DNA from: Burkholderiaceae bacterium
GTDB lineage: Bacteria; Pseudomonadota; Gammaproteobacteria; Burkholderiales; Burkholderiaceae_C
Direction of reading: 5' to 3'
DNA: 50,020 nt
Assembly (NCBI GenBank): GCA_016790175.1
Contig: JAEUPI010000024.1
Coordinates: 1 to 50,020, forward strand
The notes under the pieces are model-generated. The model did no database searches, was not told the DNA's origin, and worked only from the letters and a program-made list of their open reading frames with translations. The translations under genes and the position numbers were made by a program. This document shows, in pieces, positions 14,930 through 23,843 of this stretch (its first letter is position 1; every line of letters starts with the position of its first letter).

Positions 14930-16107
14930 GTTGCGAGGAACTCGCGGATCATCGGGGCGAGGATGCGCACGATCTCGTCGACCTCTGCCGGCGTGATGAT
15001 CAGCGGCGGCAGCAGCCGCACCACGGTGTCGGCGGTCACGCTGATCAGCAGACCGGCCTCGGCCGCGCGGCCGAGCAGCTCGCCGCAGGGCCTGGCGAGT
15101 TCGATGCCCACCATCAGGCCCTGGCCGCGGATGTCGACCACGCCCTTCAGTGCACCGAGCTCGCGCCGGAGTGCGCCATGCAGCCGCTCGCCCATGGCGG
15201 CCGCGTTGTCGACGAGCCGGTCCTCGGCCATGATGCGCAGCGTCTCGATACCGGCGCGCATGGCCAGCGGGTTTCCGCCGAACGTGGTGCCATGGTTGCC
15301 GGGACCGAGCACGTCCTTGGCCTTCGGGCCGACCACGATCGCGCCGACCGGCACGCCGCTGCCCAGACCCTTGGCCATCGGCATCACGTCGGGCAGGATG
15401 CCGGCCCACTGGTGGGCGAACCACTTGCCGGTGCGGCCCATGCCGCATTGCACCTCGTCGAGCATCAGCAGCCAGTTCTTCTCGTCGGCGAGCGCGCGCA
15501 GCTCGCGCAGGTAGTCGGCACGCGTGGGGTTGATGCCGCCTTCACCCTGGATGACCTCGAGAAAGACGGCCACGACATTGGGGTTGCCCGCAGCAACCTG
15601 CCGGATGGCGCCGATATCGTTCAGCGGCACACGCACGAAGCCTTCGACCAGCGGCTCGAAGCCCTTCTGCACCTTCGGATTGCCGGTGGCCGAGAGCGTG
15701 GCGATCGAGCGTCCATGAAAGGCCTTCTCGTAGACGATGATCTCCGGCCGCTCGATGCCGCGGTCGTGCCCGTACTTGCGCGCGATCTTGATCGCGCCTT
15801 CGTTGGCCTCGAGACCGGTGGAACAGAAGAAGGCCGACGACAGCCCCGACAGCTCGCACAGCCGGTCGGCCAACTGCTCCTGCAGCGGCATCTGGTAGTA
15901 GTTGGAGCAGTGGATCAGCTTGGCGACCTGGTCCTGCAGCGCCGGCACGAGCTTGGGGTGACCGTGACCGAGCGTGTTCACGGCGATGCCGGCCAGCGCG
16001 TCGAGGTATTCCCGACCCTGTGTGTCCCACACGCGGCAGCCTCGACCGTGCGACAGCGCAAAGGGCAGCCGGCCGTAGGTGTTCATCACGTGCGAAGGGG
16101 CGCTCAT
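14926..16107 (-). CDS. argD: Acetylornithine aminotransferase
   Basis: 393-residue class III PLP aminotransferase, acting on N-acetylglutamate semialdehyde in ornithine synthesis (and possibly on succinyldiaminopimelate). Visible motifs are the aspartate region LMLDEVQCGMGRTG, the PLP lysine in MAKGLGSG and GTTFGGNPLA. Assignment over related omega-aminotransferases rests on these motifs plus coupling to argF. It is the head gene of argD-argF-speH; a -10-like element lies 72 bases upstream. Confidence 0.93.
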   Translation of the reverse strand: MSAPSHVMNTYGRLPFALSHGRGCRVWDTQGREYLDALAGIAVNTLGHGHPKLVPALQDQVAKLIHCSNYYQMPLQEQLADRLCELSGLSSAFFCSTGLEANEGAIKIARKYGHDRGIERPEIIVYEKAFHGRSIATLSATGNPKVQKGFEPLVEGFVRVPLNDIGAIRQVAAGNPNVVAVFLEVIQGEGGINPTRADYLRELRALADEKNWLLMLDEVQCGMGRTGKWFAHQWAGILPDVMPMAKGLGSGVPVGAIVVGPKAKDVLGPGNHGTTFGGNPLAMRAGIETLRIMAEDRLVDNAAAMGERLHGALRRELGALKGVVDIRGQGLMVGIELARPCGELLGRAAEAGLLISVTADTVVRLLPPLIITPAEVDEIVRILAPMIREFLAT

Positions 16108-16179
16108 CGAAGGCTTCTCCAGGCTCCAGAAAAGAAACAGCCGGCTTGTGTCACGACAGTCACGCGCCGGCCGTGAACG

Positions 16180-16185
16180 ATTCTA
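16180..16185 (-). promoter_or_regulatory. Putative -10 element for argD
   Basis: TAGAAT on the minus strand in the context TTTAGAATCG, 72 bases before the argD ATG. It resembles the CCTANAATCG elements ahead of other genes in this window. No ARG-box-like palindrome was recognised nearby. Confidence 0.4.
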
Positions 16186-16351
16186 AAGCGGGGGTCCGTC
16201 AGCGCCGAAGACAGACGGTCCTCCGCCCTCGGGTCGCCACATGTTTGCTGCAACGCAACAACCAGCAGTTACCGTCGCTCCCACCGCACCGCACGGGCAT
16301 CACCCGTCGGCAGGCGTGCGATGGCGCGCTGCATGGCCCAGACCGCATCAC

Positions 16352-16648
16352 GTGACCCGCGAAGTCGTCATCGAGGGCCTGACCCGGGCCGGCAAACCGT
16401 TTCGCCCGAGCGATTGGGCCGAGCGGCTGGCCGGAGCGCTGTCGTCGTTCCGGCCGCCGGGGCTGACCATCGGCGCGCACATCGGCTACTCGCCGTATTG
16501 CGTGCCGCGCGTGGTGGGCGGCGTGAAGTGCGTGATCGTCAGCGAGGCGCTGCGCGAGGTCGAACCGATGGCCTGGGACTTCGTGATGCACTTTGCCCGC
16601 GACAACGAGCTGCGCACGCACGAGCGCGCGCCGGGCGAAGGCGAGTAG
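16352..16648 (+). CDS. DUF3579 family protein
   Basis: 98-residue protein of a family found mainly in betaproteobacteria. Conserved features are an opening EVVIEGLTRAGKPFRPSDWA, the YSPYCVPRVVGGVKCVIV stretch and C-terminal MAWDFVMHFARDN. The GTG at 16352 was preferred because it gives the family length; an ATG at 16241 would add 37 residues with no family resemblance. Function is unknown. No signal or membrane segment is visible. The gene is isolated: argD diverges on one side and rpsT converges on the other. Confidence 0.72.
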   Translation: MTREVVIEGLTRAGKPFRPSDWAERLAGALSSFRPPGLTIGAHIGYSPYCVPRVVGGVKCVIVSEALREVEPMAWDFVMHFARDNELRTHERAPGEGE

Positions 16649-16672
16649 GGCAGCGCGGAGGCCAGAAAGACG

Positions 16673-16762
16673 AAAGGGCCCGCAACCGCAGGCCCTTTGT
16701 CTCGATCGGGCCTGCAACCGCAGGCCCTTTCTGTTGATCGGGCCTGCAACGGCAAGACCCGT
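16673..16762. terminator. Bidirectional terminator made of 32-bp tandem repeats
   Basis: Three units of 32-bp period start at 16676, 16708 and 16740. Unit 2 contains the perfect stem GGGCCTGC-AACC-GCAGGCCC followed by TTT. Unit 1 has one stem mismatch but is flanked by AAA and TTT, so it works on either strand. Unit 3 is decayed in its right arm. The array sits between the convergent DUF3579 gene and rpsT and should terminate both. Confidence 0.75.
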
Positions 16763-16783
16763 GCGGTGAACGCCGCGGAGGTC

Positions 16784-17080
16784 TCAGGCGCTCATTGCCT
16801 TCAGGCGGGCGGCCAGACGGCTCTTGTGTCGCGCGGCCTTGTTCTTGTGGAAGATGCCCTTGTCGGCCACCGAGTCGATGACGCTTTGCGCGCTCTTGAA
16901 CAGCTCGGTCGCCTTCGCCTTGTCGCCCCCGGCCGCGGCCTTTTGCACGTTCTTGATCACGCTGCGGAACTTCGAGCGCAGCGAGGTGTTGTGCGCATTG
17001 AGCGTCACGTCCTGCCGCGCGCGCTTGCGGCCCGAGGCGAGGCGGACGGTCTTCTTCTTGGCTTTGGAGGCGGTGGCCAT
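16784..17080 (-). CDS. rpsT: 30S ribosomal protein S20
   Basis: 98-residue, strongly basic primary 16S rRNA-binding protein. The sequence carries the Burkholderiales-type opening ([18 protein letters not shown]) and the conserved C-terminal [15 protein letters not shown]. The ATG at 17080 is the standard start; the upstream frame reads into the leader. It is monocistronic, with a -10-like element at 17158-17163 and the repeat terminator downstream. Confidence 0.96.
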
Positions 17081-17157
17081 GGTCGTGCTGCAGGGGGACT
17101 GCTGGATGGGGGCGCCGCTGCACCGGATGGGCGCACTGCGACGATGAAAAGCCGCGC

Positions 17158-17163
17158 AGTATA
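17158..17163 (-). promoter_or_regulatory. Putative -10 element for rpsT
   Basis: TATACT on the minus strand, 77 bases before the rpsT ATG, divergent from the murJ element at 17206-17211. The -35 match is weak. Confidence 0.4.
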
Positions 17164-17205
17164 GCACCGGCCCGGGCCATGGCCGGTCGGTGCGGGGGGT
17201 CTACC

Positions 17206-17211
17206 TATAAT
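17206..17211 (+). promoter_or_regulatory. Putative -10 element for murJ
   Basis: TATAAT within CCTATAATCG, ending only 11 bases before the murJ ATG. Transcription from it would give a leader of about five bases, so the message may be nearly leaderless. No clear -35 box or Shine-Dalgarno sequence is seen. Confidence 0.45.
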
Positions 17212-17222
17212 CGGGCTGCGCG

Positions 17223-18779
17223 ATGAACCTGCTGAAGGCCGCCTCCACCGTATCGGTTCTGACGCTGGCGTCACGGGTCACCGGGCTGGTGCGCGAGGCG
17301 TTGATCGCCGGGGCGTTCGGCGCCAGTGCACTGACCGACGCCTTCAACGTGGCTTGGCGCATTCCCAACCTGTTGCGGCGCCTGTTCGCCGAAGGCGCGT
17401 TCGCACAGGCCTTCGTGCCCATTCTGGCCGCCACGCGGGAGCGCGACGGCGGCCCCGCGACCCACGAGCTCGTCGATGCGGTGGGCACGGTGCTGTTGTG
17501 GGCCTTGATCGCCACCGTGGCGCTCGGTGTCGCCGCCGCGCCGGTGGTCGTCTGGCTGGTGGCCTCCGGGTTGCAGCGCTTCGACGACGCGGTCTGGATG
17601 ACTCGCGTGATGTTCCCGTACATCGGTCTCATCTCGATGGTCTCGCTGGCCGCCGGCATTCTCAACACCTGGCGGCGCTTTGCCTTGCCTGCGGCGACGC
17701 CAGTGCTGCTGAACCTGGCCGTCATTGGCGCCACCCTGTGGGGTGCGCCTTGGTTCGGACGGCAGGGCATTCAGCCGATCTACGCGGTGGCCTGCGGCAC
17801 GCTCGTCGGCGGGGTGCTGCAGTTGGTCATCCAGTTTCCCGCTCTGCGCCGGATTGGTTATCTGCCGCGCCTGCGGCTGGCGCCGCATGGCGTGGCTGCG
17901 GCTTGGCACCACCCCGGCGTGCGGCGCGTGCTGGCGCAGATGGCGCCGGCGGTGCTGGGTGTTTCGGTAGCGCAGATCTCGCTGCTGATCAACACGCACA
18001 TCGCATCGCGGCTCGCGGTCGGTTCGGTGTCGTGGTTGAACCTGGCCGATCGGCTGATGGAGTTGCCCACCGCGCTGCTGGGCGTGGCGCTGGGTGTCGT
18101 GCTGCTGCCGCAGTTGTCGGCGGCACAGGCGCGAGGCGACGACGATGCCTACTCGGCGATGCTCGACTGGGGGCTGCGCCTGGTGGCTCTGCTCGCCTTG
18201 CCATGTGCCGTGGCGTTGATCGTGTTCGGCCAGCCGATGCTGGCGGTCTTGTTCCACCATGGGCGCTTCACGGCGAACGATGTCGTGCAGAGCGCTGCGC
18301 CGCTGATGGGCTATGGCGTCGGTCTGCTGGGCATCGTCGCGGTGAAGGTGCTGGCACCGGGCTTCTATGCCCGGCAGGACATCCGCACCCCGGTGCGTAT
18401 TGCGATTGCGGTGCTGGTGCTGACCCAATTGTTCAACCTGGTGCTGGTGCCGTGGCTGGCGCATTCGGCGCTGACCCTGAGCATCGGCATCGGGGCGCTG
18501 ATCAATGCCGGGTGGTTGCTGCGCGGGCTGCGACGCCTGGGGGTCTACCGCCCATCGCCGGGATGGACGGCGCTCGTGTGGCGACTGATGGTGGCCAATG
18601 CCGCCATGGGCGCGCTGCTGCTCTGGCTGGCGCGACGGGTCGACTGGATCGCGTTGCAGTCCGATCTCCCACTGCGCGCGCTGGCGATGGCAGCGGCGCT
18701 GGCGGCAGCCGCAGTGGTGTACTTCGGTGTGCTGATCGCGAGCGGACTGCGCTGGCGCGAGTTCCTGCGCAAAGGCTGA
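17223..18779 (+). CDS. murJ: Lipid II flippase MurJ (MviN)
   Basis: 518-residue polytopic inner-membrane protein of the MOP superfamily that flips lipid II for peptidoglycan synthesis. The sequence opens with the typical NLLKAASTVSVLTLASRVTG and contains about 14 hydrophobic segments. The N-terminal LVREALIAGAFGASALTDAF and RRLFAEGAFAQAFVP are diagnostic. The ATG at 17223 begins exactly at the family N-terminus. Two GC-rich hairpins without T-runs follow the stop. Confidence 0.95.
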   Translation: MNLLKAASTVSVLTLASRVTGLVREALIAGAFGASALTDAFNVAWRIPNLLRRLFAEGAFAQAFVPILAATRERDGGPATHELVDAVGTVLLWALIATVALGVAAAPVVVWLVASGLQRFDDAVWMTRVMFPYIGLISMVSLAAGILNTWRRFALPAATPVLLNLAVIGATLWGAPWFGRQGIQPIYAVACGTLVGGVLQLVIQFPALRRIGYLPRLRLAPHGVAAAWHHPGVRRVLAQMAPAVLGVSVAQISLLINTHIASRLAVGSVSWLNLADRLMELPTALLGVALGVVLLPQLSAAQARGDDDAYSAMLDWGLRLVALLALPCAVALIVFGQPMLAVLFHHGRFTANDVVQSAAPLMGYGVGLLGIVAVKVLAPGFYARQDIRTPVRIAIAVLVLTQLFNLVLVPWLAHSALTLSIGIGALINAGWLLRGLRRLGVYRPSPGWTALVWRLMVANAAMGALLLWLARRVDWIALQSDLPLRALAMAAALAAAAVVYFGVLIASGLRWREFLRKG

Positions 18780-18785
18780 TCGCCG

Positions 18786-18803
18786 GGCGCGGTCGGTCGC
18801 GCC
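18786..18803 (+). terminator. Hairpin after murJ
   Basis: GGCGCG-GTCGGT-CGCGCC stem just after the murJ stop, with a second stem, CTGCGG / CCGCAG, about 30 bases on. Neither has a T-run, so termination strength is uncertain. Confidence 0.3.
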
Positions 18804-18844
18804 ACCCGTGAACCAGGGCCTTTCTGCGGCGGGCCCGCAGCCCC

Positions 18845-18850
18845 TACACT
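18845..18850 (+). promoter_or_regulatory. Putative -10 element for the SirB1-type gene
   Basis: TACACT in CCCCTACACTGG, 28 bases before the ATG at 18879. No clear -35 box. Confidence 0.3.
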
Positions 18851-18878
18851 GGTTTCGCCAGATCGCACGAATGCCGCG

Positions 18879-19748
18879 ATGAGCCACCCGCTGCTGTTCA
18901 AAGCCCCGAGCCCGCTGGAGTATTTCGCCAGTCTGGTGGCCGACGACGACCATTTCGCGTTGCTGGAGGCCGCGGTGTCGATCGCGCAGGATGAGTACCC
19001 GCAACTCGACGTGCAGGTGGTGCTGGCGGAGATCGATGCGCTGGCCGGCCGGCTGAAGAGCCGTGTGCCGGCCGATGCCGCGCCGGTGCAGCGATTGCGA
19101 TTCCTGAACCGTTTCTTCTACCAGGAGCTCGGATTCGCCGGCAACGTCAACGACTACTACGACCGGCGCAACAGCTTTCTGAACGACGTGCTGAGCCAGC
19201 GCCGCGGCATTCCCTTGACGCTGGCGTTGCTGTACATCGAACTGGCGAGTCAGCTCGGGCTGACCGCTCGCGGGGTGTCGTTTCCGGGGCACTTTCTCGT
19301 CAAGCTGCGCATGCCGCAGGGCGAGGTGGTGATCGATCCGTTCGACGGCCGTTCGCTCTCGCGCGAGGATCTCGACGAACGGCTCGCGCCGTATCGGCGA
19401 CGGCAGGGGCTGGTGGGCGAGTTCGAGGCGCCGCTCGGTCTGTTCCTGCAGGCAGCGCCGGCGCGCGACATCCTGGCGCGCATGCTGCGCAACCTGAAGG
19501 AGGTTCACCGCAGCGCACGCGACTGGCCGCGCTGGCTCGCGGTGCAGGAGCGCCTGGTCGTGCTGCTGCCGCAGCAGGCCGAGGAGAGGCGCGACCGTGC
19601 GTTGGTGCGCGCCGAGCTCGGCCAGAGCGAGGCCGCGATCCACGACCTTGAGGTCTATTTGCAGCAGCGTCCGGCTGCGGACGACGCACGGGAGATGGCC
19701 GAGCGTCTGGCCGCGCTGCGCCGGCAGGGTACGCCGCGGCTTCACTGA
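18879..19748 (+). CDS. SirB1-family transglutaminase-like/TPR protein
   Basis: 289-residue cytoplasmic protein of the SirB1 family. The N-terminal two-thirds is a transglutaminase-like fold domain with the conserved blocks LNRFFYQELGFAGN, YYDRRNSFLNDVL, RRGIPLTLALLY and GVSFPGHFLVK. The C-terminal third (about 190-285) looks like tetratricopeptide helices. The family is widespread in proteobacteria but its biochemical role is not established. It is followed by a hairpin and then the permease gene with its own -10-like element. Confidence 0.82.
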   Translation: MSHPLLFKAPSPLEYFASLVADDDHFALLEAAVSIAQDEYPQLDVQVVLAEIDALAGRLKSRVPADAAPVQRLRFLNRFFYQELGFAGNVNDYYDRRNSFLNDVLSQRRGIPLTLALLYIELASQLGLTARGVSFPGHFLVKLRMPQGEVVIDPFDGRSLSREDLDERLAPYRRRQGLVGEFEAPLGLFLQAAPARDILARMLRNLKEVHRSARDWPRWLAVQERLVVLLPQQAEERRDRALVRAELGQSEAAIHDLEVYLQQRPAADDAREMAERLAALRRQGTPRLH

Positions 19749-19756
19749 TTCCGCGC

Positions 19757-19772
19757 GCCGGTGCACACCGGC
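19757..19772 (+). terminator. Hairpin after the SirB1-type gene
   Basis: Perfect inverted repeat GCCGGTG-CA-CACCGGC, nine bases after the stop codon; no T-run. Confidence 0.3.
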
Positions 19773-19793
19773 GGTGGGCGCCGGACCAGCACC

Positions 19794-19799
19794 TACAAT
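19794..19799 (+). promoter_or_regulatory. Putative -10 element for the permease-hda operon
   Basis: TACAAT within CCTACAATCG, 73 bases before the permease ATG. The identical 10-mer precedes the DUF47 gene at the same 73-base distance. Confidence 0.45.
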
Positions 19800-19872
19800 C
19801 GGCCGCCGCCGAATGCCCCGCCGCCTGGCGGTGTGCCCGTTCCGCGCGGCGCCACGCCCCACCTGCCGCCCG

Positions 19873-20934
19873 ATGAATCTGTCTGCTGCGCAACGCCAGG
19901 CCCTGAGCTGGGTCGGCATCGCCGTGCTGGCGGCTGTGCTTCTGTGGCTGCTGGCACCGGTGCTGACGCCGTTCGTCGTCGGCGCCGTGCTGGCCTATGC
20001 GCTGCACCCGTTGGTCGAACGGCTGGTGTCGCTGCGCGTGCCGCGACTCGTTGCCGTGGTCGTCGTCGAGGTGGCCGCGCTGGTGGTCGTGTGTTCGCTC
20101 GCGTTGCTGATCGTGCCGGTGCTCGGCAAGGAGCTTCCGTTGATCAAGGCGCAGGTGCCGGCGTTGCTGGAGCGACTGAACCAAAGCCTGTCGCCGTGGT
20201 TGGCGCAGTTCGGCATCCAGTTCGCGTTCGACGTCGCCAGTCTCAAGGCCTGGTTGAGCCAGTTGCTCGACGCGAATCTGGAGGACTGGCTCGGCGCGGT
20301 GCTCAGTTCGGCGCGCATCGGCGGCAGCGCGCTGCTGTCGTTCGTCGGCAACCTGATCCTGATTCCGGTCGTGTTGTTCTATCTGCTGGCCGACTGGACA
20401 CGTTTCGTCGAGCGCGTGCAGGCGTTGATCCCTCCGCGCATGCGCGGCAGGTCGATCGACTTCCTGGACGAATGCGACGCTGTGCTCGGTCAGTACCTGC
20501 GGGGCCAACTGCTGGTGATGATGGTGCTGGCCGTCTACTACGCCGGCGCGTTGGCACTCGTGGGCTTCGATCTGGCGTTGCCGCTGGGTGTGTTCACCGG
20601 ACTGGCGGTGGCAGTGCCCTACGTCGGTTTCGGGCTCGGCTTGACGCTGTCGCTGCTGGCGGCGCTGCTGCAGTTCGCCAGCCTCAAGGGCGTGTTGCTG
20701 GTGGCGCTGGTCTATGGTGTCGGACAACTGCTCGAAGGCTTCGTGCTGACGCCGCGGCTGGTGGGCGAGCGCATCGGCCTCAATCCGCTGGCCGTGATCT
20801 TCGCGCTGCTGGCGTTCGGCACGCTGTTCGGCTTCGTCGGCGTGCTCGTGGCGCTGCCGGCGAGCGCCGTGATGCTGGTGGGGTTGCGTCGCGCGCGCAC
20901 GGCCTATCTGGGCAGCCGGCTGTACAACGGATGA
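19873..20934 (+). CDS. AI-2E/PerM family membrane transporter
   Basis: 353-residue polytopic membrane protein of the AI-2E family (PerM-like). About eight hydrophobic segments are seen: two near the N-terminus, one at about 65-85, then a soluble amphipathic stretch (90-155) and the conserved C-terminal half with LTPRLVGERIGLNPLAVI. The family exports or exchanges small solutes in some members; the substrate here is unknown. The ATG at 19873 starts directly ahead of the first hydrophobic segment. Its stop overlaps by ATGA the start of a ten-codon ORF leading into hda, so it probably heads the operon. Confidence 0.86.
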   Translation: MNLSAAQRQALSWVGIAVLAAVLLWLLAPVLTPFVVGAVLAYALHPLVERLVSLRVPRLVAVVVVEVAALVVVCSLALLIVPVLGKELPLIKAQVPALLERLNQSLSPWLAQFGIQFAFDVASLKAWLSQLLDANLEDWLGAVLSSARIGGSALLSFVGNLILIPVVLFYLLADWTRFVERVQALIPPRMRGRSIDFLDECDAVLGQYLRGQLLVMMVLAVYYAGALALVGFDLALPLGVFTGLAVAVPYVGFGLGLTLSLLAALLQFASLKGVLLVALVYGVGQLLEGFVLTPRLVGERIGLNPLAVIFALLAFGTLFGFVGVLVALPASAVMLVGLRRARTAYLGSRLYNG

Positions 20935-20963
20935 AACAGCTCACGCTGCCGATCTCGCCATGA
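20931..20963 (+). CDS. Ten-residue upstream ORF with a sliding-clamp-binding motif
   Basis: A short ORF encoding MKQLTLPISP. Its ATG overlaps the permease stop (ATGA 20931-20934) and its TGA overlaps the hda start (ATGA 20960-20963). The first seven codons encode the same residues as the hda N-terminus but differ at three third positions, with no amino-acid change. It contains a complete QLTLPI hexapeptide of the type that binds the beta clamp. Such an ORF could simply pass ribosomes from one gene to the next, or make a real micropeptide. Translation is inferred. Confidence 0.5.
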   Translation: MKQLTLPISP

Positions 20964-21655
20964 AGCAGCTGACGCTGCCCATGGCCGCGCCGGCCGCGGC
21001 CGGATTCGAGACCTTCGTGCCCTGGCCCGATGCGGCCGTGGTGCAGCACCTGCGCCAGCTGCCGGCGCAGGCGACCCCGGTATACCTGTGGGGGCCGGCC
21101 GGCAGCGGCAAGACGCATCTGCTGCGCGCCCTGGCAGGCCATCGCCAGTCGCTGGGCGAACAGATCGGATGGTTCGATGCCGATACGCCGCCGGCCTGGA
21201 CGCTCGAGCGCGCGCACCGCCTGCTGCTGATCGACCGTTGTGACGAACTCGACGACGCCCAGCAACGCAGCGCCTTCGCGCTGCTGGTGGAGGCACAGTC
21301 ACAAGGCGTGCCGTGGGTCGCCGCGGGTCGCTTGCCGCCGGTGGATCTGCCGCTGCGCGAGGATCTGCGCACGCGGCTGGGCTGGGGCCCGGTGTTCGCG
21401 CTGCAGAACCTGCCCGAGACGCAGGCGCGCGCCGTGCTGCGACGCGAATCGGACCGGCGCGGCATCTTCCTGACCGACGAGGTGATGGGTTACCTGCTCA
21501 CGCGCTTCGAGCGCGACCTGGGCCATCTGATGGCGCTGCTGGATCGGCTCGACGAGTTCGCGCTCGCCGAGCATCGCGCGATCAGCGTGCCGCTGCTGAA
21601 GAAGATGCTCGCCGAGCAGGCAGAACCCATGCCCGTGACCCGGGAGGCCGGATGA
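20960..21655 (+). CDS. hda: DnaA regulatory inactivator Hda
   Basis: 231-residue AAA+ protein related to DnaA domain III. With the DNA-loaded beta clamp it promotes hydrolysis of DnaA-bound ATP and limits re-initiation. The N-terminal clamp-binding hexapeptide QLTLPM (residues 3-8), Walker A GPAGSGKT (45-52) and a Walker B-like LLLIDRCDEL are visible. The stop overlaps the HAD gene by ATGA. A 29-bp near-copy of the 5' end lies immediately upstream and forms a ten-codon ORF. Confidence 0.92.
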   Translation: MKQLTLPMAAPAAAGFETFVPWPDAAVVQHLRQLPAQATPVYLWGPAGSGKTHLLRALAGHRQSLGEQIGWFDADTPPAWTLERAHRLLLIDRCDELDDAQQRSAFALLVEAQSQGVPWVAAGRLPPVDLPLREDLRTRLGWGPVFALQNLPETQARAVLRRESDRRGIFLTDEVMGYLLTRFERDLGHLMALLDRLDEFALAEHRAISVPLLKKMLAEQAEPMPVTREAG

Positions 21656-22323
21656 GGCTCGCGCTGTTCGACCTCGACGGCACGCTGATCGCGAAGGACT
21701 CGGACCATGCGTTCGGCGAGTATCTCGTGGCACGCGGTTGGGCCGATGCCCGCGAATTCGCCGCCGCGAACGACCGCTTCTACCAGCAGTACCTGGCCGG
21801 TGCGCTCGACATCGATGCCTATGTCGACTTCGCCACCCGGCCGTGGCGCGACCGCCCGGCCCCCGATCAGGCCGAGGTGGTGCAGGCCTTCATGCGCGAG
21901 GTGATGCAGCCGGAACTGCACGCACGGGCCCTCGCGCTCGTGCAGTCGCACCTGGACGCCGGCGACCGGGTGGCGATCGTGACGGCGACCAACGAGTTCA
22001 TCACGCGGCCGATCGCGCGTGCGTTCGGAGTCGAGACCTTGATCGCCACCGAACTCGAGCGCGACGGCGCCGGCCGCGTGACCGGCCGCATCCGCGGTGT
22101 GCCGTCGTTCCGCGAGGGCAAGATCGCACGCGTGGAGCAGTGGCTGGACACGCTGGGCACGCGGCTGGCCGATTGCCGCGCCAGCGTCTTCTACAGCGAT
22201 TCGACCAACGACCTCGCGCTGCTGCAGGCGGTGTCGGAGCCGGTGGCCACCAATCCCGGCCCGGCGCTGGAGGCGATCGCGCTCCAGCGCGGCTGGCGTA
22301 TCCTGCGTCTGTTCGAACAATGA
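21652..22323 (+). CDS. HAD-superfamily phosphatase, SerB-like subclass IB
   Basis: 223-residue phosphatase of HAD subfamily IB. Motif I is DLDGT (nucleophile Asp7, acid Asp9), motif II lies in VAIVTAT, the motif III lysine is in FREGKIARVEQW, and motif IV is YSDSTNDLALL. Relatives act on phosphoserine, histidinol phosphate or lipid phosphates, and the substrate here is not fixed. It is joined to hda and pcnB by ATGA overlaps at both ends, a conserved arrangement in Burkholderiales. Confidence 0.87.
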   Translation: MRLALFDLDGTLIAKDSDHAFGEYLVARGWADAREFAAANDRFYQQYLAGALDIDAYVDFATRPWRDRPAPDQAEVVQAFMREVMQPELHARALALVQSHLDAGDRVAIVTATNEFITRPIARAFGVETLIATELERDGAGRVTGRIRGVPSFREGKIARVEQWLDTLGTRLADCRASVFYSDSTNDLALLQAVSEPVATNPGPALEAIALQRGWRILRLFEQ

Positions 22324-23843
22324 TCAAGCGACTGATCGACAAGCTGCTGGGCAAGCCCGCGCAGCGCATTCCGTTGGGCAAACGCGTGGAGGTCGGCGTG
22401 GCCGAGCTCGGTATCGACCCGTCGCTGGTGGACGACCGCGCGCTGAAGGTGGTATCCACACTCAAGCAGGCCGGACACGAGGCCTACGTGGTGGGCGGCG
22501 CGGTACGCGACCTGCTGGTGGGGCGCCGGCCCAAGGATTTCGACGTCGCCACCGACGCCACGCCCGAGCAGGTGAAGCAACAGTTCCGCCGCGCGTTCGT
22601 GATCGGGCGCCGCTTCCGCTTGGTGCACGTGGTGTTCGGGCGGGGCCGCGACCACGAGGTGATCGAAGTCTCGACCTTTCGCGCCTATCGCGACGCGAGC
22701 GAGGCCGAGCAGGTCGACGGCAATGAACGCACCAGCAAGTCGGAACTGAGCGGCAAGACCCATGTCGTCGATGCCAGCGGCCGGGTGCTGCGCGACAACG
22801 TGTGGGGTCCGCAGATCGAAGACGCCGCGCGACGCGATTTCACGATCAACGCGATGTACTACGACCCGCAGGCGCGGATCGTGGTCGACTATCACGGCGG
22901 CGTGCAGGACGCCAAGAAGCACCTGCTGCGCATGATCGGTGACCCGGCCACGCGCTACCGAGAGGATCCGGTGCGTGTCGTGCGCGCGGTGCGCTTCGCG
23001 GCCAAGCTGGGCTTTCGCATCGAGGCGAAGACCGCCGCGGCGATGGCCGAGGCCATCCCGCTGTTGGCCAACGTGCCGGCTTCGCGGCTGTTCGACGAGA
23101 TGATCAAGCTGCTGCAGACCGGCCATGCCCGGGCCAGCGTGCAGGCGCTGCGGCAGTACGGATTGCACCGCGGCGTGTTCCCGGTGCTGCAGATGGTGTT
23201 CGACGAGCGCAGCAGCGAGCAACGACAACGCTTCATCGACCTCGCGCTGGCCGACACCGATCGCCGGGTCGAGGAGGGGCGTGCCGTGGCGCCGAGCTTC
23301 CTGCTCGCCTGCCTGCTGTGGCACGACGTGCTGACGCGCTGGGACGAACTCAAGCGTGCCGGCGATGCGCCGATCCCGGCGCTGCAGCAGGCCGTCGATG
23401 CCGTGTTCGATGCCCGCATCGGCGACGTGTCGGGCCGCGGCCGGCTGGCAGCCGACATGCGCGAGATCTGGCTGATGCAACCTCGATTCGAGCGCCGGCA
23501 GACGAATTCCGCGCTCGCGCTGGTGGCGCAGCCGCGCTTTCGTGCCGGCTACGACTTCCTGCGCCTGCGCGCCGACGCGCAAGAGGTCGACGGCGACCTC
23601 GCCGACTGGTGGGAGGACTTCTCCCTCGGCGATACGCTCGAGCGTGAAGCCCTGCTGCAGTTGGCGCGTGACGCCGATCGCACGCGCCGCCAACCCGAAG
23701 CGCCCGCACCGCCACCGGCTGGCGACGACGCGCCTCGCAAGCGGCGTCGGCGTCGGCGCCGCGGAAGCGGGGCCGCGCGCCAGACAACCGACGGTGCGCT
23801 CGACGTCGGCGCAGGCGCTGATCCACCCGTGGCCGGGAGCTGA
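22320..23843 (+). CDS. pcnB: Poly(A) polymerase I
   Basis: 507-residue class II nucleotidyltransferase that adds 3' poly(A) tails that help mRNA decay. The nucleotidyltransferase signature [17 protein letters not shown] carries the catalytic D-x-D pair. RNA-binding regions follow, and the C-terminus is a very basic Arg/Lys-rich tail (about residues 465-490). The ATG at 22320 overlaps the HAD stop. A tRNA CCA-adding enzyme is less likely because of the length, the basic tail and the position before folK. Confidence 0.93.

Follow-up and report, generated by a model that had tools for sequence, protein, structure and literature searches.

A duplicated hda start as a likely translational relay at the permease-hda junction of a Burkholderiaceae bacterium

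In a 50,020-nucleotide stretch of DNA from a Burkholderiaceae bacterium (the whole analysed stretch, here called the window), a ten-codon open reading frame (mini-ORF) is wedged between a permease gene and hda, and its predicted peptide closely resembles the beginning of Hda itself. Is this a gene for a small clamp-binding peptide, as a sequence-only reading of the locus proposed, or does the mini-ORF serve translation of the gene that follows it? The features of the locus are as follows.

19873 to 20934, + strand: AI-2E family permease gene (PF01594, AI-2E_transport, 180 bits).
20931 to 20963, + strand: mini-ORF of ten codons (MKQLTLPISP), with one -4 overlap at the permease stop and another at the hda start.
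20931 to 20959, + strand: first copy of a 29-bp tandem duplication, at the position of the relatives' hda start.
20960 to 20988, + strand: second copy, from which hda (MKQLTLPMA) now starts.
20960 to 21655, + strand: hda, DnaA regulatory inactivator homologue (TIGR03420, 192 bits; PF22688, 68 bits).
21652 to 22323, + strand: HAD-IB phosphatase gene (histidinol-phosphatase type), which also has an ATGA junction with hda.

The start and stop overlaps described in the sequence-only reading were confirmed. The ATG at 20931 opens the ATGA at 20931-20934, whose TGA (20932-20934) is the permease stop, and the mini-ORF ends in a TGA at 20961-20963 that overlaps the hda ATG at 20960. Overlapping both neighbours by four bases each, the mini-ORF has the geometry of a relay. 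The hda product scores slightly below the TIGR03420 cut-off of 194.8 bits and above the Pfam cut-off for the Hda lid domain (Hda_lid, PF22688), and its residues 3-8, QLTLPM, form an N-terminal clamp-binding-type motif. It is an Hda-type AAA+ protein with the lid domain and the N-terminal clamp motif.

The tandem near-duplicate seen earlier is also real, with 22 of 29 bases identical between the copies. Mismatches fall at positions 6, 12, 21, 24, 25, 27 and 28 of the unit. Positions 6, 12 and 21 are the third bases of codons 2, 4 and 7, and the differences there are synonymous, so that codons 1-7 differ only at three third positions, as had been observed. The claim that the peptide is conserved between the copies holds for these seven codons and fails for codons 8-10, which read I-S-P in the mini-ORF and M-A-A in hda. 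An alternative fit of the unit, 32 bp with one 3-base gap, gives 24 matches and leaves the argument about frame unaffected. Under a criterion of 20 of 23 bases matching at an offset of 12-80, the window contains two adjacent near-repeats of such quality, the duplication at hda included. Because 40 order-3 Markov simulations of the window gave a mean of 0.05 (maximum 1), a chance origin of the repeat is unlikely.

Roughly three tandem 32-bp units lie at 16671-16766 of the window. They are flanked by the ends of two ORFs, one at 16648 and the other, on the minus strand, at 16784; the latter ORF resembles ribosomal protein S20. The first two units are GC-rich hairpins followed by T runs and look terminator-like (16698-16673 on the - strand, 16708-16727 on the + strand); the array is possibly a duplicated bidirectional terminator.

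The genus sample comprised six genomes, the window's own included, and hda was found in five of them; G003, which is 68% complete, gave no match. The Hda proteins of the four same-genus relatives are 70-75% identical to that of the window and therefore belong to other species, the sample being without a same-species genome. None of the four has the mini-ORF, an absence from close relatives that, at genus level, refutes a functional short ORF by the sequence-only reading's own standard. Three of them (G002, G004 and G005) have a permease whose stop is directly overlapped by the hda ATG, which places the window's mini-ORF at the relatives' hda start position. In G001, by our reading of the sequence, no permease lies between hda and the upstream gene, the end of which resembles a SirB1-type protein; the junction parse likewise gave no permease end there.

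We then looked for the motif across the family, where hda was found in 291 of 299 genomes. Eighty short junctions were taken from the listed hda matches, mostly the best-scoring ones, and 78 could be parsed (all except L110 and L113). A [KR]Q[LIMV]xL motif was found in none of these 78 in any forward frame over about 200 nt upstream of hda; the window alone has one. A search of 399 family genomes, the window's own included, for two tandem hda-like starts gave two matches, and only that in the window's genome lies at hda. The pattern requires ATG followed by a K/R codon starting with A, and other forms of the start would escape it. The same pattern matched the window's genome alone among 300 genomes of the order, nine of them from the same family (again including its own). 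The duplication thus looks private to the window's lineage. The second family match is in G286, where the listed ORFs of at least 100 aa are not Hda-like. What the pattern caught there (L046, on the minus strand at G286:C10:2076-2121) is an exact direct repeat of 14 bases, ATGAGACAAATCGC, with 32-base spacing, apparently unrelated to hda. A GGDEF-like gene lies nearby.

The copies themselves hold some information on age. Codon 5 is ACG (Thr) in both and CCN (Pro) in all four genus relatives, and Thr occurs at Hda codon 5 in only three of 77 parsed relatives. Since both copies share the Thr that the genus relatives lack, the duplication is probably younger than the Pro-to-Thr change. When polarised by relatives, copy 1 has changed at position 6 (synonymous), at positions 25 and 28 (both non-synonymous), and probably at position 12 (synonymous, with the same base in one relative); copy 2 has changed at position 21 (synonymous) and at position 24 (Ile to Met). 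The mismatch at position 27 can be assigned to neither copy. The synonymous differences had been taken as a sign that the peptide is conserved (the chance of three is about 0.02), an argument that takes no account of copy 2, the real Hda start, which supplies one of the three. Copy 1 has about two synonymous and about two non-synonymous changes in total, a number too small for a selection test.

The explanation we favour, and consider rather probable, is that an accidental duplication was tolerated because the mini-ORF keeps permease and hda translationally coupled, the content of the peptide being irrelevant. Apparently in the window's lineage alone, some 29 bp at the ATGA between permease and hda would have been duplicated in tandem; translation of hda would since have begun 29 bases further downstream, with the former start surviving as the mini-ORF. 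As the unit begins with ATGA and has a length of the form 3k+2, the stop of the mini-ORF automatically falls in the ATGA at which hda now starts. A ribosome that has terminated on the permease could start again on the mini-ORF, translate its ten codons and then start once more on hda, and coupling would be retained even though the permease stop is now 25 nt from the hda start. Most likely, then, the mini-ORF does no more than pass ribosomes to hda and supplies no useful clamp-binding peptide; its peptide would be Hda-like merely as a copy, most likely with no function of its own. We infer both that the relay is translated and that the coupling is important for hda.

Support for the relay comes from junctions elsewhere in the family. 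We collected 126 loci with longer flanks (four from the genus, 26 top matches, 16 from genus g12 and 80 by coordinates) and added the window. The parsed set comprised 122 junctions, the window included; five loci failed because of their pattern or short contigs, of which L131 and L140 were read separately and L035, L038 and L168 were left out. Only two upstream genes, permease and SirB1, were sought (by tblastn): the nearest was the permease in 72 junctions, SirB1 in 39 and neither in 11. With a SirB1-type gene nearest in 39 of 122, the permease may have been lost, relocated or changed beyond detection in many lineages. Permease and hda overlap by -4 in 32 of the 72 pairs, among which the window is counted. 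In a strict relay, as we defined it, the start codon of the mini-ORF overlaps the permease stop (-4 or -1) and its stop codon overlaps the hda start (-4). Eleven of the 37 junctions with gaps of 0-69 nt, the window included, contain one and 26 do not. The ten outside the window carry these peptides.

L022: MSRPS.
L027: MSGR.
L129: MSAVPDPVQAGPR.
L130: MTA.
L138: VRAGR.
L161 and L188: VMPSA or MPSA, with one common gap sequence.
L171: VRVAR.
L025: MLPSISRSRP.
L031: MSEFLSC.

Together with that of the window, these relays span six genera (the window's, g12, g61, g60, g67 and g111). Their peptides are unrelated to one another and have only the geometry in common. A null model with random gap sequences and gap lengths shifted by -1, 0 or +1 gave a mean of 5.2 relays against the 11 observed (p 0.004). 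Without the window and without L188, whose gap sequence equals that of L161, nine of 35 junctions are relays against 4.6 under the null (p 0.018).

The frame of the gap points the same way. Of the ten junctions in which an RTGA permease stop is followed by a gap of 3-69 nt and hda starts with NTGA, nine, the window among them, have the relay frame; a binomial test against one third gives p 0.0004. The frame is found in 11 of the other 24 junctions, and Fisher's test of the two groups gives p 0.019. These frame tests are post hoc, the sample is hand-chosen and weighted to close relatives with genera unevenly sampled, and the relay-frame cases are clustered, five of the nine coming from genus g12 and two (L161 and L188) having the same gap sequence. 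We read the tenth junction, L173, as an in-frame Hda extension rather than a relay, and L227, a later locus with a GTGA stop, a gap of 11 and no relay, likewise. The third, uncoupled frame was not seen among the RTGA/NTGA junctions. Both L173 and L227 have a start codon on the permease stop that shares the reading frame of hda, so that Hda may carry a short N-terminal extension ahead of the clamp motif there. L131 (genus g12), read individually, has a 4-nt gap without a relay. Genus searches around G065, G064, G209 and G071 led mostly to genomes already in the sample; besides L227, the junctions they added include L225, with a four-base overlap, and L228, with a gap of 18 and, by our reading, no relay. 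The pattern GGATGA-gap-ATG-hda occurs in three of 399 genomes (the window's, G016 and G298), always in the relay frame, and none of the three was new to the junction set. Taken together, these counts suggest a moderate enrichment of relays at the permease-hda junction.

As a control we used the next junction of the operon, between hda and the HAD gene. It has a -4 overlap in 33 of 42 cases, and its only three gaps of 3-69 nt, too small a number for a test, are all 1 mod 3. In L019 the hda stop lies in an ATGA, the gap is 7 and the HAD start is ATGA, so that the relay frame is found at this junction too.

The hda start of the window appears to have no strong initiation region of its own: a crude word scan found no Shine-Dalgarno-like stretch at the mini-ORF or hda start; the same scan found one in 16 of 77 relatives. 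The junction folds somewhat better than its shuffles (z -2.30), with six of 200 shuffles equally good. Accessibility of the window's start is ordinary (0.45, against a mean of 0.43 in the 77 relatives), and we rejected mRNA structure as the key to the locus on this ground. Rfam gave no match at the gathering threshold over positions 16000-23000.

How much a relay would matter depends on how strongly reinitiation falls with distance. The accessible part of PMC10666635 reports, for three E. coli gene pairs, a loss of 40-80% at +14 nt that is almost complete at +38 nt. It also reports hardly any reinitiation at 22-23 nt in Haloferax and finds the final 15 nt of the upstream gene to be enough. One study cited in a review (PMC12548453, seen in part) has coupling undiminished from -4 to +25 nt, yet highest at -4. 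If spacing does matter so little, the relay would not be needed. A stronger version of the coupling reading, which we regard as possible but doubtful, would make the permease-hda junction of these Burkholderiales a selected relay: where the hda start has been displaced, mini-cistrons of 3 to 13 codons and arbitrary sequence would tend to stay in the frame that chains two stop-start overlaps, the dose of Hda would be fixed by ribosomes that come from a membrane-protein gene and reinitiate twice in succession, and the relay in the window would release a clamp-binding-type decapeptide at each pass.

The best-surviving alternative is that the duplication is a neutral scar without any effect worth naming, hda being initiated independently and the relay geometry being a coincidence. 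We consider this unlikely, if worth serious attention. For a unit starting with ATGA the probability of relay geometry is about one in three, some five of the relays in the 37 gapped junctions are expected by chance, and that of the window could be such a piece of luck; the ordinary accessibility of its start and the lack of visible purifying selection on copy 1 fit this reading. It accounts less well for the relay frame in nine of ten eligible junctions, the excess of strict relays overall, and two window starts that are both without a Shine-Dalgarno-like stretch.

Considerably less probable is an assembly chimera of two strains, or another sequence error. The assembly is a draft of 283 contigs and is 82.3% complete, and copy 1 reads as an Hda N-terminus with synonymous changes of its own, as the allele of a second strain would. 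Against this, the window is without N, the genome has a single hda match, the Thr5 common to both copies is absent from the four genus relatives, and the join, judged by eye, is without the long shared word that a short-read assembler needs.

The sequence-only reading had put first a free micropeptide competing with Hda for DnaN. QLTLPI does resemble the QL[SP]LPL hexapeptide, and the absence of a same-species genome from the sample leaves room for a young micropeptide function. The accessible text of PMC3836487 cites two in vitro findings: E. coli Hda needs its QLSLPL hexapeptide to bind the clamp, and a 10-aa peptide from E. coli Hda that contains it competed with Hda, the source given being Kurz 2004. 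The same text reports that in Caulobacter a YFP fusion with HdaA residues 1-10 failed to localise with DnaN in vivo, even though it was more abundant than HdaA. A YFP fusion is not a free peptide, and the result weighs against micropeptide competition without excluding it. With a mini-ORF found in no tested relative, peptides without a clamp motif at the same place in other genera, and a copy 1 whose changes are as often non-synonymous as synonymous, we regard a competing micropeptide as very improbable; among the genomes compared, the ORF was found in the window's alone, and for this reason a conserved micropeptide was rejected as the preferred reading. A literature search, with most subscription journals outside its coverage, found no paper on a micropeptide acting on Hda and none on the permease-hda overlap.

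Coupling therefore remains the likely interpretation of the mini-ORF and a peptide function a very unlikely one, as far as sequence comparison can tell. The sequence-only reading had also mentioned stop-start coupling, and this part of it is plausible and indirectly supported by the unrelated mini-ORFs that link both overlaps elsewhere. The new point is modest: relay mini-ORFs seem to recur at the permease-hda junction. A general rule follows the same logic, in that a tandem duplication that starts at an ATGA junction and is 3k+2 long yields a coupled mini-ORF, provided that no stop codon comes earlier. In annotation and in searches for micropeptides, such relays could pass for functional small proteins, above all where a known motif has been copied. 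The recurrent relays also offer a testable case for selection on the coupling of an upstream gene with a replication regulator.

Several known systems resemble the proposed relay in part. Short leader cistrons coupled to a target gene are used in bicistronic designs, which are engineered and, according to the accessible text of PMC5995908, provide a Shine-Dalgarno sequence for the second cistron, unlike the window. A Salmonella small ORF that likewise lies between genes is said to promote translation of a Mg2+ transporter, and the title of the source (PMC8092293, seen in part) calls it translation-aborting. ORFs upstream of a gene that deliver ribosomes to it are described in the part of PMC12548453 available to us. 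A comparable ORF is ORF-11 of the integron attI1 site, 11 codons long, whose translation delivers ribosomes to a gene without an initiation region of its own and in which amino acid changes have only a slight effect (PMC8876359, accessible text). ORF-11 has its own Shine-Dalgarno sequence, whereas the mini-ORF would be fed by the ribosomes of the permease. In mycobacterial interspersed repetitive units (MIRUs), a short ORF inserted at a start codon is coupled to the displaced gene at -4 spacing, probably sparing its expression (PMC12548453, in the part seen), and the arrangement in the window is alike. MIRUs are repetitive and apparently mobile according to the same text, and what we see in the window is a local duplication of hda's own start: no MIRU-like repetition was found across its genome, where the tandem-start pattern has one match and the junction DNA one full match. 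The relay also resembles the termination-reinitiation coupling reported at ATGA gene overlaps (PMC6728339 and PMC10666635, both seen in part). Both junctions in the window are -4 overlaps of the NTGA form; the difference is that here two such overlaps stand in series, with a ten-codon ORF between them.
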